From: Planctomycetia bacterium
GTDB taxonomy: Bacteria; Planctomycetota; Planctomycetia; Gemmatales; Gemmataceae
Assembly: GCA_005772955.1 (NCBI GenBank)
Contig: SXID01000075.1
Span: forward strand, 1-64,000
Length of the DNA stretch: 64,000 nt
Direction: 5' to 3'
The notes below the pieces were generated by a model. The model worked only from the letters and a program-made list of their open reading frames with translations, did not search any database and had not been told where the DNA came from. Shown here one piece after another: positions 27,854 through 58,480 of the stretch. Numbering within the stretch: the stretch's first letter is position 1; the number at the start of each line of letters is the position of its first letter. The translations under genes were made by a program, and so were the position numbers.

Positions 27854-28135
27854 ATGACCGAAGAGGAGTGGGGGAAGTGTTGCGAACCAAAACCAATATT
27901 GGGGTTTCTGCCAGGCAAGGTGAGGGACCGGAAAATGCGGCTCTTCGCGTGTGTACTTACTCGTCGGTGTCCGGGCTTTCTTGCCGATGAGGGACGTAAG
28001 TGCGGTGTGAAACTCGCTGAGCAGTACACGGACGGAATGTCGCATGACGAGGAGAGACGCGTTCACGCACCCGGCGGTTGCCAGGACACATCGACACGCG
28101 CGTGTGGCGGGTTCGCAGACGCCATCATCTGCTGA
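27854..28135 (+). pseudogene. Truncated copy of a Gemmata paralogous family (MTEEEW type)
   Basis: The first ~60 residues (MTEEEWGKCCEPKPILGFLP, then GKVRDRKMRLFACVLTRRCP and KLAEQYTDGM) resemble the N-terminus of a large Gemmata protein family that usually reads MTE.EWL...P..ML.FL.GK.SDRKLRLFA..CCRR. After DGM the similarity stops, and the frame runs into the 3' end of the convergent kinase gene. It is probably a decayed or truncated copy. A second decayed copy lies at 62740-63313. Confidence 0.6.
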
Positions 28136-31100
28136 TACGCCCCGCGCGCGTACTCGCCCAACTGCGGCAGGTCCATCAACGTCAACTGCGGATACTCGCG
28201 ATAGAAACAGATGTCGTCCGGCAAGTGCGCGGAGACGAACTCCGTTCCTGGCAGCGCGATACTCGCGAGTTCCTTCAAGCGATCGCCGTCCGGTCCGGGC
28301 GGGGCGCCCAAGACCACCATCTCGGAGAGCGGCGAGAACACGCTGGGGCCCAGTTGCGGCGCAGCCTCCTCGAACGCCTCACCCAACAACGGTTGCGCGC
28401 TCCCGTTCTCGGTCCTCGAGTTGAAGAACACCGTCGCCGGGTCGGAGTGGTCGAGCTTTGCGTCGAGGAACTCACGAGCCTTGTTCAGCAGCATCTCGCG
28501 GAACACCGACCCCTTCTCCACGGGTTTGAGGCACACGTTCCCCAACCCGCGGAACTTTCGGGTGATGTCCTTCTGGAGCGACCGGTCGAACGCCAGGAGG
28601 TCGGCCGGCGCCAGCGCTGCCAGGAACTGGTCAGCGGCCTCGTCCAGGTCCTTGCACCCGTCCGGAAGGATCAACTTGCCCGGTGCGCCGTCCGCGTCAC
28701 CCGGTCCGCCGATATTCCCCAACTCGGCGTGCATATCAGTCAGTGTGGACCGGCAGAAATTGATCTCTCGCAAATACTCCGGCGCGTTACCGGACATCCG
28801 GTGGAACACCGACAGCGCCAAATCCAACATGTGCAGTTGCAACCGCTTCTTGGCATACGTGCGGAGTAGGTCGACCACCTCGGCCGCATTCGCCCGGCGC
28901 CCCGCCAGCGCGCCGAGGCCGGTGCCACCCAAGCTACCGATCGCGTGGAGCAGACGCGTGTAGATCGAGCGTACCTCCTTATCGAGATCGACCCGCACCG
29001 ACTCCAGCGCATCGACCTGCCCCTTCAGCCGCTCGCTGATCTGCCGCACCGCTTCCTCAGCGCCGGGCAACCGGTACTGCGGCACCTCCAGAAACGTCGC
29101 GGCCATCACCGAAACTTGCCCCTCAGTTTCCTTCGCAAGCTCCTCGAACCGGGCGCTCATCGCCACACGGAACGAACACGGGAGCAAGCCGTTCTCGGTG
29201 TCCGGTTTGCCAACCAACTTGATGAGTTGAGCAAGGACGTTGCACGCGGACGTGGGGTCCATCCGGCCGCCAGACGGGGTGCGCAGCGGATCGATGAACG
29301 CATCGAACACGCGGTCTGGGTCTTCGCACAGCGCCGCGTGCGCAACGTCCCGGAGAGCCTCGACGATGGCGTCGAACGACAACTTGCGTTCCGCCCACTG
29401 TTCCGTCAGCCACCCGGCGATGTGTTCGCGCAGGTGCCCCGCGTCCTTCCCGCTCCAGTTATGGAGTTGCCGCTGCGCGAACCGCCTCGTCGCGGACGCG
29501 AGCACCTCCGGACGCGGCCAACACAACCGGAACAAGCCGAACGTTTGGCAGGTGGGTGTATCGACCGGGTACGCGTTGCGGTACGCGTCGCGTCTTTCGT
29601 CTGCCACGCGCCCGACCGGCGTGAACAGTTCGTGGAACAGCGCGCGGGCGGCCGCCGCGAGCACTGGGCGCGACGCGATCGCGTCGGTCCCCTTCGGCAA
29701 TTGCGAAATCACAGTGCGCGCAAACGGCGGGTCGCCGTCGATGATCGGCGCCTCGGACTTGTCGAACACCGTGGCATACCGTGTCTTCTTCGACTGAAAG
29801 TGATGTAACTCAGCGAGTGCAGCGTAGGTGTTCGCCATCGCGTTTGAACGCGGCGCGAACGCGTCAGCGGGTGGCACAAAGAACATTCCGACCACTTCGG
29901 GGCGTACGTACCCGACCTGTCTCATTTCGTGGCGCACAAGGTACGCCACGTCGAGGAACATGCCGCTGCCGGTCCCGCCCGCGAGGCACGCGACGATGTA
30001 GACACGCGGTCGGTTGGTCCGCAGCCCACGCTTCGTGACCTTGTCCGCCTGTAACAGCGGAGCGTCGGTCAAGAACGTCTCGATCTCTTGGCGAACGCGC
30101 TGGACGATGGTGTGGTAGTGGTCAAACAGCGCAAGCCGACCGAACGCCCGCACACCGGCGGCCGGCCCGGGGTTACGCGGAAGTTTGTAGAGCAATCCTG
30201 ACGGCATCCACTGTTCAACTGGAGGCAGCGTGTCCCGCTGCATGTAGTGGGTCGCACGGTTCAACCGGGCGGGGACCACCTCGCGCGCCGTGAGCGCCCC
30301 GGGGTTGTCCGGGGCCGGCACCGCAGCGCCTGGGTCCGGGTCCGTGTCGATGTAAAGGATGCGCACGTTCGGCACGCGCTCACTCGAAATGTATCGCTCT
30401 GTAATCACCCGCTTCAAGTGTTCCGCTACCCGATACCCGGTATGACCAATGGCAACGACGAGCGCCGGGAACAGCGAGCCGTCGCCGGACTTCTCCGGCG
30501 GGGCGATGTCCAAGGTGCCCATCCGCCCGGTCTGAAGGACGACGGACCGGGTGAGCGTCTGTGCGGGATTCTGTGTGGTCGAGGTGCAAGGGGTCACGAA
30601 CCGAATGCCGGAGTTGGATGGGACGAACCCTGGCAGCGGCGAGCCGTTCACGCTCTGGCCAGGTTTCACGAGTGGCGGCAAGTGTGTTGGTGGCGGGGTC
30701 TGCTCGTGGTTCGACGCTGCGGGCGCGGACCCCAGCCGGCCCGACCCACTGGCCACGCGAGTCGCCTGGATTGAATCGGTCAGCGCGTGCCCGGCTGGGT
30801 TGGGCATGGTCGCCGCACCGGACTCCGGCGTGCTGCGAGCCGGGCGTGGACCGGGCGTTGGCGGAGTCGCCTGTGGGGTAACCGATGCTTGAGGCGACCC
30901 ACTCGTCTTCAGCGCGTGAATCAGTTCGCTGCAGGTCGGCCACCGATCATTCGGTTTTTTCGAGAGCGCGCGTCCGATCAGCGCGCGGTCGTTAAGCGGC
31001 AGCGCACTCAACTCCGGTGTGCCGTTGATGTGCTGCATGAGCAACTGGCGGGTGTTCGCGCCGTTGAACGGCCGGCGCCCGGTCAACAACTCTTGGAACA

Positions 31101-31725
31101 CGATCGCGAGACTGTACTGGTCGGAGAACCTGGACACCCAGCCCTCGAAGGTCTCCGGTGCCGCGTACACCGGCGTGACACCCCCCGTGACGGTCGCACG
31201 CACACCTTCCAATACCTTCGCCAATCCAAAGTCGGCAACCTTTACGTGGTTGAAGACCAGGAACAGGTTTTGAGGCTTAACGTCGAGGTGCTGAATCTGA
31301 TAGTGGTTGTTCATCAGATCAAGACCTTCTGCGGTTTCCTCCAGATACCGCAGAAGCTCCTCGCGCGGGATGCCCTGAAGCCCCTGCCCGCGACACTCGC
31401 GGTACCGGTCCCAGAGGTTGCGGTCGGCCAGTTCCATCACGATAATGAGTTGGCCGTCGATGACCCTGAACTGTTCGAGCGTGAGGATGTACGGGTGGCG
31501 GATAAGTTTTACCCGCTCCAGTGCCTTGAGTTCCTGCTCGGCCGGGCGGCTGTCCTCGTTCATTGCTTCGAGGTCACCGAAAACGAACTTGACCGCCTTG
31601 AGCATCCCGCCCGGCGCTTCGACCTTCCACACCTCACCGAACCCGCCGCGACCGAGTCGTTCAATCAGTCGATACCCGTCAAGCGGGGCTGGGAGTTCTT
31701 CGTGGCTGACCAAGCGAACCGACAT
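28063..31725 (-). CDS. Serine/threonine kinase fused to a tubulin-like domain
   Basis: A 1220-residue protein. Residues 18-275 form a Hanks-type kinase: glycine loop GRGGFGEV (25-32), Lys in KAVKF (46), HLDVKPQN (146-153), DFG (165-167) and APE (189-191). The catalytic loop has HLD instead of HRD. A Pro/Ser/Thr-rich linker covers 275-415. From about 416 a tubulin/FtsZ-like domain begins: FPALVVAIGHTGYRV, an ILYIDTDPDPGA strand, and the GTP-phosphate loop GGTGSG (583-588), followed by about 600 mostly helical residues. No membrane helix or signal is seen. I start at the ATG 31725 because the frame upstream of it is antisense to the ASCH gene. It may couple phosphorylation to a GTP-binding filament. 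Confidence 0.85.
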   Translation of the reverse strand: MSVRLVSHEELPAPLDGYRLIERLGRGGFGEVWKVEAPGGMLKAVKFVFGDLEAMNEDSRPAEQELKALERVKLIRHPYILTLEQFRVIDGQLIIVMELADRNLWDRYRECRGQGLQGIPREELLRYLEETAEGLDLMNNHYQIQHLDVKPQNLFLVFNHVKVADFGLAKVLEGVRATVTGGVTPVYAAPETFEGWVSRFSDQYSLAIVFQELLTGRRPFNGANTRQLLMQHINGTPELSALPLNDRALIGRALSKKPNDRWPTCSELIHALKTSGSPQASVTPQATPPTPGPRPARSTPESGAATMPNPAGHALTDSIQATRVASGSGRLGSAPAASNHEQTPPPTHLPPLVKPGQSVNGSPLPGFVPSNSGIRFVTPCTSTTQNPAQTLTRSVVLQTGRMGTLDIAPPEKSGDGSLFPALVVAIGHTGYRVAEHLKRVITERYISSERVPNVRILYIDTDPDPGAAVPAPDNPGALTAREVVPARLNRATHYMQRDTLPPVEQWMPSGLLYKLPRNPGPAAGVRAFGRLALFDHYHTIVQRVRQEIETFLTDAPLLQADKVTKRGLRTNRPRVYIVACLAGGTGSGMFLDVAYLVRHEMRQVGYVRPEVVGMFFVPPADAFAPRSNAMANTYAALAELHHFQSKKTRYATVFDKSEAPIIDGDPPFARTVISQLPKGTDAIASRPVLAAAARALFHELFTPVGRVADERRDAYRNAYPVDTPTCQTFGLFRLCWPRPEVLASATRRFAQRQLHNWSGKDAGHLREHIAGWLTEQWAERKLSFDAIVEALRDVAHAALCEDPDRVFDAFIDPLRTPSGGRMDPTSACNVLAQLIKLVGKPDTENGLLPCSFRVAMSARFEELAKETEGQVSVMAATFLEVPQYRLPGAEEAVRQISERLKGQVDALESVRVDLDKEVRSIYTRLLHAIGSLGGTGLGALAGRRANAAEVVDLLRTYAKKRLQLHMLDLALSVFHRMSGNAPEYLREINFCRSTLTDMHAELGNIGGPGDADGAPGKLILPDGCKDLDEAADQFLAALAPADLLAFDRSLQKDITRKFRGLGNVCLKPVEKGSVFREMLLNKAREFLDAKLDHSDPATVFFNSRTENGSAQPLLGEAFEEAAPQLGPSVFSPLSEMVVLGAPPGPDGDRLKELASIALPGTEFVSAHLPDDICFYREYPQLTLMDLPQLGEYARGAYQQMMASANPPHARVDVSWQPPGA

Positions 31726-31837
31726 GACGGGAATCGTCTCTCGAGGGCGTGACCGCACCCGCCGGCCGAGTTTCGGCGCGGACGGTCCCAAGTTGGGGGC
31801 TACTACTCTGTAGTTCAGGCTGTGAGGTTTGGCAACA

Positions 31838-32308
31838 ATGAGGAAGTCCGACTCAAACTCCGTTCGCGCCACACATGAACGCCTTCCCTCGCCGGGACAA
31901 TTCCTTGCGATTTCCGTGAAGCAACCGTGGGCCGCACTCCTTGTTGCCGGCGTGAAAACGGTCGAGGTCCGCACCTGGCGAACCCGCAAGCACGGGCCGA
32001 TTCTGATCCATGCGGCGAAAATTCCCGACAACCGCCCCGAAGGTTGGGCGCTAATTACCACGCCAACACTCAAGGAACTCGCACGCCTCCAAGGCGGGAT
32101 CATCGGGGTCGCGAACCTCACCACGTGCCTAAAATACAGCACCCCGGAGGTATTTGCGAAGGCGGAGGACGCGCACCGAAACGCGCCCGACTGGTTCCGC
32201 GAAGGGGGACTTTACGGGTTCGTGTTCCAAGATGCCCGCCCGATCGCGTATCATGCCTGCCCCGGACGGACATTATTCTTCACGGTGGAAGGAATCACCC
32301 TCTTATGA
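31838..32308 (+). CDS. ASCH domain protein
   Basis: A 156-residue protein. FLAISVKQPWAALLVAGVKT followed by VEVRTWRTRKHGPILIHAAK is the ASCH signature (beta strand, then the G.K..E.R.W motif with Lys and Arg lining an RNA-binding groove). ASCH domains bind RNA or modified nucleotides. The stop overlaps the start of mfnB by four bases (ATGA), implying coupled translation. The ATG at 31838, preceded by GAGG, was preferred to a TTG three codons earlier. It is divergent from the kinase-tubulin gene, 112 bases away. Confidence 0.82.
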   Translation: MRKSDSNSVRATHERLPSPGQFLAISVKQPWAALLVAGVKTVEVRTWRTRKHGPILIHAAKIPDNRPEGWALITTPTLKELARLQGGIIGVANLTTCLKYSTPEVFAKAEDAHRNAPDWFREGGLYGFVFQDARPIAYHACPGRTLFFTVEGITLL

Positions 32309-33015
32309 GCACCACGCCCGGACTGTTGGTCAGCGTGCGGTCGGCAGACGAAGTCGCGGCCGCGATCGAAGGCGGCGCCGATCTGATCGACGTAAAAGAA
32401 CCCGCAAAAGGTCCTCTCGCCGCGGCCGAAGCGGAGGTCGTCGCGGCCGTCATCGACGCCGTTGACGCTCGCGTCTCGGTCAGCGCCGCACTCGGCGAAT
32501 GGTCCCCCAACGCCATCACCGAAGCACACTGGCACCTCGAACTGCCGCTTCAGTACGTGAAGTGGGGACTCGCCGGGTACGCGCCCGCGCCCGGTTGGGG
32601 CGAAGACCTGCTCGACACACGGCGCGAACTACCGATCGGTACGGAGATGGTCGCGGTGGCGTATGCGGACTGGGAGCGGGCGAAGTCGGTGCCACCCGCC
32701 GAGGTCGCGAAGTTCGCAAAACGGTTCCGCTTCAAAGCGTTCCTGCTCGACACGTGGGGCAAAGACGGCAAGACACTGCTCGACTTCATGACCGCGAAGG
32801 AAATCGCCGGCCTCGTGGACAGCATGAAACGCGTGTCCACAACGGTGTCCATCGGCGGTTCAATCCGGCCGGAGCAGATCAAGCAACTCAAGGGCGTAGC
32901 GCCAGATTACTTCGCGGTGCGGACCTCCGCGTGCGCCGCGGGCAAGCGCGACGGCGTGATCGACGCGACCCGCGTGCGGAAGTGGAAAGAAGTCCTCGCG
33001 GGGGTGAAGGTGTGA
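32305..33015 (+). CDS. mfnB: (5-formylfuran-3-yl)methyl phosphate synthase (MfnB)
   Basis: A 236-residue TIM-barrel protein. The opening LLVSVRSADEVAAAIEGGAD and then LIDVKEPAKGPLAA matches MfnB (DUF556), with Lys31 of DVKEP as the Schiff-base lysine; a second conserved lysine lies in LQYVKWGL, and DTWGKDGKTLLDFM and VSIGGSIRPEQI follow. MfnB joins two glyceraldehyde-3-phosphate molecules to make the furan of methanofuran. In planctomycetes and methylotrophs this serves the tetrahydromethanopterin/methanofuran C1 pathway. Other genes of that pathway are not in the window. Coupled to the ASCH gene upstream. Confidence 0.88.
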   Translation: MSTTPGLLVSVRSADEVAAAIEGGADLIDVKEPAKGPLAAAEAEVVAAVIDAVDARVSVSAALGEWSPNAITEAHWHLELPLQYVKWGLAGYAPAPGWGEDLLDTRRELPIGTEMVAVAYADWERAKSVPPAEVAKFAKRFRFKAFLLDTWGKDGKTLLDFMTAKEIAGLVDSMKRVSTTVSIGGSIRPEQIKQLKGVAPDYFAVRTSACAAGKRDGVIDATRVRKWKEVLAGVKV

Positions 33016-57385: not shown

Positions 57386-58480
57386 TTACCGACCGCGAAG
57401 CCAGCCGACGAGGAACAGCACCAGCGCCGGCGTCAGGAACCACGGGTAACGCTCCTTCGGCTGCGGAACCTGATCCTCGCCGACGATGGTGCGAGGCGTC
57501 TGTCCCTCGATACGGTTGTGGAAGAACTCGCCGAGTTGCGGCGCACCGGTGCGAGCCGCAACGTAGTGCCCGTTCGTGTCCGTGGCGCTCTGCTTCAAAA
57601 GATCCTCTTGCAACTGTGTGCTGAATACTTCCGCCCCGTCGTGGTCAGGTTCGGGCACGGTCGCTTGGGTCGGGTGGCCGACACCAACGGTGTAAACCGG
57701 GATGTTCGCGGTCCGCGCAGCGTTCTTCCCGCGAACCCATTCCTTGTCACCCTCGTCTGGGTCGTCACCGTCGGAGATGAGGAAAATGTCTTGCGAACCG
57801 GTGAACCGCGAATCGTGCGTTTCGATGGCTGCAACGAGCGCGGCGCCGATGCGCGTGCCAGACGTGATGTTCGGGTCCGCGCCGGCCTTGCACTCCGGTG
57901 GCGGGAACCGGCCGTGAATGTCATTCAGAATCGCCTTCACGTGCTTGTAGTCGGTCGTGAGCGGGCAAATCACTTTCGGCTTCGACGCGAACACCACCAC
58001 GCCGACGCGATGCCCGCCACGCCGCGCGATCGCGCCGAGCAAGTCCAGCGAGCCGGCGCGAGCACCTTCCCATCGCGTTTTGGCTTTCGGGTCGGTCATG
58101 TCCTCGGCGAGCATCGAGCGGCTCAGATCGATCACGATGACGATGTCCCTTCCCACCGCGACGCCGGGTTCGTCGCTCTTACCCCAGCGCGGCCCGCTAA
58201 TGCCGAGAATCAGGAAGACCCACGCGAGCGGATACGCCAGACCCAACCATCGGCGTGTGCGGCGCGGGTGCGTGAGTTGTCCGGCGACCGCCGCGGGCCG
58301 CCCGATAGCCGCGAACGCGCGATTGCGCTGTCGCGCCGCGAACCGGTTCAGCAAGGCGAGCAGCGGAAGCAAGAGCAACAGCCACAGCGCGTCCGACCGG
58401 GCCAACCGCACGGCCGCGAGGAACTCTCGCCCGTCGGTCAGCAACCCAGACAGCCCGGATGATGTGGCCAGAAGAAGCAT
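57386..58480 (-). CDS. BatB-like von Willebrand factor A protein
   Basis: A 364-residue membrane protein. Two N-terminal membrane helices (ALWLLLLLPLLALLNRFA, WLGLAYPLAWVFLILGI) precede a VWA domain with the MIDAS motif DLSRSM (residues about 117-122), a TSGTRIGAAL threonine site and FLISDGDDPDEG. One C-terminal helix (FLTPALVLFLVGWL) ends it. The VWA domain would face the periplasm and bind metal and partners. The start abuts an inverted repeat and has no Shine-Dalgarno sequence. Confidence 0.87.
   Translation of the reverse strand: MLLLATSSGLSGLLTDGREFLAAVRLARSDALWLLLLLPLLALLNRFAARQRNRAFAAIGRPAAVAGQLTHPRRTRRWLGLAYPLAWVFLILGISGPRWGKSDEPGVAVGRDIVIVIDLSRSMLAEDMTDPKAKTRWEGARAGSLDLLGAIARRGGHRVGVVVFASKPKVICPLTTDYKHVKAILNDIHGRFPPPECKAGADPNITSGTRIGAALVAAIETHDSRFTGSQDIFLISDGDDPDEGDKEWVRGKNAARTANIPVYTVGVGHPTQATVPEPDHDGAEVFSTQLQEDLLKQSATDTNGHYVAARTGAPQLGEFFHNRIEGQTPRTIVGEDQVPQPKERYPWFLTPALVLFLVGWLRGR

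Follow-up and report, generated by a model that had tools for sequence, protein, structure and literature searches.

The window analysed here, a 64,000-nucleotide stretch of a Gemmataceae genome, encodes on its minus strand a protein that joins a Ser/Thr kinase to a relative of tubulin and FtsZ, and the question that this locus raises is whether the two parts make up one working protein and what it might do in the cell. The reading frame of the gene (28063..31725, minus strand) is open from the ATG at 31725 to the stop codon at 28063–28065 and encodes 1220 amino acids; a methionine is found at the position of this start in 92% of 64 homologues. Both the Pfam Pkinase match (residues 18–268, E = 9.1e-33) and the Tubulin_2 match (PF13809, residues 422–752, E = 2.3e-42) fall within this single ORF, in agreement with the original prediction of a kinase and a tubulin-like domain in one polypeptide. 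The PF13809 match scores 146 bits against a curated cut-off of 27 and covers positions 1–353 of the 356 in the profile. The two domains are connected by a linker (residues 276–415; 30481..30900, minus strand), in which Pro, Ser and Thr make up 41% of residues, as had been noticed earlier. The linker is poorly conserved, with a mean identity of 18% and a length of 44–150 residues among the 64 homologues, so that no fixed phosphorylation site is visible in it.

The kinase domain (residues ~15–275; 30901..31683, minus strand) contains all the motifs expected of it: the G-loop GRGGFGEV, K46, HLDVKPQN (residues 146–153), DFG (165–167) and APE. It is of Hanks type, judged by its catalytic Lys, Asp and Asn and the Asp of DFG. 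K46, D148, N153 and D165 are identical in all 64 homologues, which together with the Pfam E-values shows that the domain assignments are not due to chance. The Arg of RD-class kinases is absent, and the earlier remark that HRD is replaced by HLD holds for the whole family, as L147 is found in 63 of the 64 sequences. Conservation is highest in the kinase, at a mean identity of 62%; the GTPase part reaches 35%, the C-terminal end 28% and the insert described below 23%. This conservation and the fixation of all catalytic residues suggest that the kinase activity is under selection and argue for a working, non-RD kinase, which is most likely soluble and catalytically competent.

Kinase and tubulin-like part are almost invariably found together in the relatives. 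In the 60 neighbourhoods collected, the kinase is present in 67 of 68 family ORFs, the one ORF without it being the latter half of a gene broken by a frameshift, and the same genome encodes another fused kinase-Tubulin_2 protein (L002, contig C90, 445–3966, plus strand). A misassembly, considered with the original prediction, or a chance fusion was rejected on these grounds. A profile search of public genomes, which relied on an alignment narrower than the full 64-sequence set, found 64 of 68 loci to be fused, the other four belonging to Armatimonadota and a cyanobacterium; among the named carriers of the fusion are Gemmata sp. IIL30, Limnoglobus roseus, Zavarzinella formosa and Planctomycetes bacterium Pan216. 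Outside the class to which the window belongs, no fusion was found in the phylum. Tubulin_2 was detected in 48 of the 59 relatives searched, mostly in three copies per genome within the genus and the family. The phylogenetic tree contains three main paralogue clades, A (with the window gene), B and C, which are old and have been kept over a family of genera. Clades A and B are in tandem in several deeper genera. The genome studied here has clade A and clade C (the copy on contig C90) only, and the next-best match in it to a clade B protein is a kinase from the same subfamily that lacks a tubulin part. A gene on contig C86 (L096, 8379–10397, plus strand) encodes a kinase of this subfamily, with 52% identity to a clade B kinase, whose C-terminal part differs; by eye the end resembles PilZ, but Pfam matched only the kinase.

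The GTPase part (residues 416–760; 29446..30480, minus strand), delineated by Pfam, hhalign comparison to FtsZ, structure prediction and motif counts, has recognizable loops T1 (GHTGYR), T2 (IDTDP), T3 (GVRAFGRLAL), T4 (GGTGSG) and a T7-like segment (LFTPVGRVADERR). The predicted phosphate loop GGTGSG is indeed located at residues 583–588 and is followed by 632 residues, close to the 600 estimated earlier; AGGTGSG at 582–588 fits the GGGTG(S/T)G-like GTP-binding pattern. Loops T1–T4 are conserved within clade A. T4 is of the GG(T/S)G type in most of the 64 aligned sequences (more than half have GGTGSG or GGTGGG); in about 15 of them, including the clade C copy of the same genome, it is one residue short (GGSG-G), so some members of the family may not bind nucleotide. 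The T7-like segment TP.GR..D..R precedes strand S7, and its acidic position is D or E in 52 of 64 sequences. For the FtsZl1 proteins, as Tubulin_2 proteins have also been called, Makarova and Koonin (2010, PMC2875224) found that T6-H7 and the C-terminal domain could not be identified by sequence. Likewise, hhalign comparison to FtsZ (E about 5e-6) covered T1 to T4 only, and with the insert columns removed it aligned the N-terminal half but not the C-terminal domain of tubulin, so the reading of the latter rests on predicted structure. A sequence-profile search of solved structures yielded no Tubulin_2 structure, its matches being chance matches to helical proteins, and weak similarity to FtsZ-like phage proteins was the only result among viral structures. 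The protein ends with a conserved PH.R.DV.W tail.

The AlphaFold2 (AF2) model of residues 405–1220, built from the 64-sequence alignment, has a pLDDT of 90 and was compared with solved structures by VIA-align. The tubulin-like fold proposed from the sequence was recovered in this model: its best match is CetZ (3zid; Z = 26.4, rmsd 3.5, 298 of 342 residues, model residues 14–800 against CetZ 1–343), followed by tubulins and FtsZ. In a control prediction of residues 405–760 alone, that is, the GTPase part without the insert and the C-terminal end, the match to CetZ decreased to Z = 19.9 (rmsd 3.2) with 222 residues aligned to CetZ 1–245, and the strand at model residues 321–331 was lost. Seventy-six more residues, and CetZ residues 246–343, align only when the residues after 760 are present, which indicates that the C-terminal tubulin domain is completed in the model by residues located after the insert. 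The predicted structure thus suggests a whole tubulin fold whose C-terminal domain is split by a helical insert of ~370 residues. We read the order of elements as S7-H9 at model residues 321–353, a stretch of ~370 helical and coiled-coil residues, and S8-H10-S9-S10 within model residues 732–778. The insert (residues ~761–1128; 28342..29445, minus strand), delimited by predicted secondary structure and aligned lengths, is 359–413 residues long across the 64 sequences and contains long helices at model residues 481–529 and 533–600, forming the coiled coil and largely helical region that follows the FtsZ-like domain. The putative C-terminal end of the fold (residues ~1129–1220; 28066..28341, minus strand) is delimited by the model, by the VIA match extending to model residue 800 and by conservation. 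The split C-terminal domain, as seen in predicted models only, is the most useful addition of this analysis.

The FtsZ/tubulin-type profile PF00091 had no match in the genome that contains the window. It had a match in only one of 41 genomes of the family, to a Tubulin_2 protein at the same place as the Tubulin_2 match, so that no tubulin-superfamily protein other than the fusions was detected in these genomes. In the whole phylum, a PF00091 match was found in one of 118 genomes. A conserved, catalytically complete kinase combined with a predicted complete tubulin fold makes the fused protein a testable candidate for a role in the division or organisation of such bacteria, for which the clade-specific neighbours scpA, parA and FHA genes offer the first hypotheses about partners.

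These neighbours provide leads clade by clade but do not define a system. In most loci, clade A genes are transcribed divergently from genes for an ASCH-domain protein and a 4HFC-P synthase. In the window, the ASCH gene (31829..32308, plus strand; assigned by Pfam and by synteny with clade A) is followed by the 4HFC-P synthase-like gene, the two spanning 31829–33015, and this divergent arrangement is kept across the family; the ASCH gene was also seen in another family of the order. The ASCH gene is probably not part of the function of the fusion. In four Gemmataceae genera (L045, L047, L055 and L085), scpA lies directly downstream of the A-B tandem and in the same orientation, –88 to +30 bp away, and a ParA-type gene is upstream on the same strand in all three loci of the Pan216-type clade (L067, L079 and L080). 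Neither link was found in the genus of the window organism, both being confined to particular clades. In two loci of another clade, an FHA-EAL gene (L068) or an FHA gene (L069) is located 109–166 bp upstream of the fused gene. FHA proteins adjoin fused genes at L068 (7062–8267, plus strand), L069 (10986–12083, minus strand) and L071 (4778–5896, minus strand), two of them with an EAL domain. FHA domains bind phosphothreonine, and these neighbours are possible candidates for phosphothreonine readers. In nine clade C loci, an FtsH gene is convergent to the fused gene.

How might the two parts work together? The computed basis for any answer consists of both domains, their conservation and the predicted fold, and the reading that we favour, if tentatively, is that assembly of the GTPase part puts the tethered kinase in place and activates it. 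A flexible linker would hold the kinase to a Tubulin_2 (FtsZl1) GTPase resembling CetZ and FtsZ, and this part would bind GTP and assemble as a filament or a smaller oligomer. Assembly would fix the protein at a particular place in the cell and bring kinase domains together, a gathering of kinases that the original prediction had also suggested, so that they could be activated by proximity; the non-RD kinase would then act on partners and might also phosphorylate the linker or the tubulin part of its own chain, with feedback on assembly, in a role that may lie in the organisation of the nucleoid or the cell. The tubulin fold is by itself no proof of polymerisation, and the 370-residue insert in the predicted C-terminal domain could stand in the way of the contacts, longitudinal or lateral, on which FtsZ and tubulin rely. 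That insert is also the starting point of a less probable explanation, in which the tubulin-like part no longer assembles and serves the kinase as a regulatory domain or scaffold that responds to GTP. As a switch, in monomeric or dimeric form, it would control the kinase according to how much GTP is present or whether a partner is bound to the insert. The shortened T4 loop of one paralogue clade would suit such a switch, and Makarova and Koonin allowed, as the less likely case, that FtsZl1 proteins form no filaments (PMC2875224). However, the whole tubulin fold appears to be kept in the model, and one would expect the mostly acidic T7-like position to act on the adjoining subunit; we consider this explanation rather doubtful.

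Another explanation, which the original prediction put first and which is equally doubtful to us, makes the tubulin-like part and the linker, in the same or neighbouring molecules, the main substrate of the kinase, with phosphorylation of the linker or the insert switching assembly on or off. The intact kinase and the abundance of Ser, Thr and Pro in the linker are consistent with it, as is the implication of serine/threonine kinases in FtsZ phosphorylation (PMC2875224), but conservation is concentrated in the kinase rather than in the supposed target, and the linker, at 18% mean identity and 44–150 residues, has no site that stays fixed. The general proposal for FtsZl1, a membrane-remodelling or vWA system, seems improbable for the fused protein. 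A vWA gene does adjoin the Tubulin_2 gene in the unfused relatives examined in the same phylum (L098, L101 and L103), which is the association described in PMC2875224; such a neighbour is common in the family but does not define it. Still, the fused genes keep different company, and a pattern search found no vWA-type motif in the ORFs adjoining them in the loci examined, only distant ones. In the window, an ORF with the vWA MIDAS-like motif VIDLSRSM (57386–58480, minus strand) is about 26 kb from the gene. Kinase activation by assembly, our preferred reading, can be extended to a bolder and quite unlikely picture, in which the duplicated fusion forms, in these FtsZ-less bacteria, a self-regulating cytoskeleton driven by GTP and ATP, with a kinase on every filament subunit and the insert as a lateral arm, organising the nucleoid or cell with partners of the ParA/ScpA type.

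Among known systems, the closest are the planctomycete FtsZl1 kinases. Makarova and Koonin (2010) described four planctomycete FtsZl1 proteins with an additional N-terminal kinase (PMC2875224), and this architecture was repeated in papers of 2023 and 2024 (PMC9871819, PMC11032199). The fusion was thus already published in 2010, although the original prediction did not mention it and named unfused Tubulin_2 proteins; what this analysis adds is a model in which residues beyond the insert complete the tubulin C-terminal domain, together with the three paralogue clades and the neighbours. A literature search confined to open-access papers turned up no study on the function of a kinase-tubulin protein from planctomycetes. 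The published proteins, likewise cytosolic, have the same order of N-terminal kinase, FtsZ-like domain, coiled coil and mostly helical C-terminal part, and do not differ in architecture from the window protein. The kinase domain also scores against the phage-defence profiles MAD6 and PD-T4-6; a phage-defence role was rejected because these matches are generic and the likeness is limited to the kinase part, with the NCBIfam MAD6 equivalog profile giving 88.7 bits against a cut-off of 460. Unfused proteins of the same Tubulin_2 family, found in other planctomycetes and also in Armatimonadota and cyanobacteria, lack the kinase, and the unfused planctomycete loci examined have the vWA neighbour that the fused loci do not. 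The nearest solved fold is that of the archaeal CetZ (PDB 3zid, 4b45 and 4b46; Z = 24–26, rmsd 3.5–4.1 over about 300 residues), which has only 11–14% identity to this protein and possesses neither the kinase nor the 370-residue insert.
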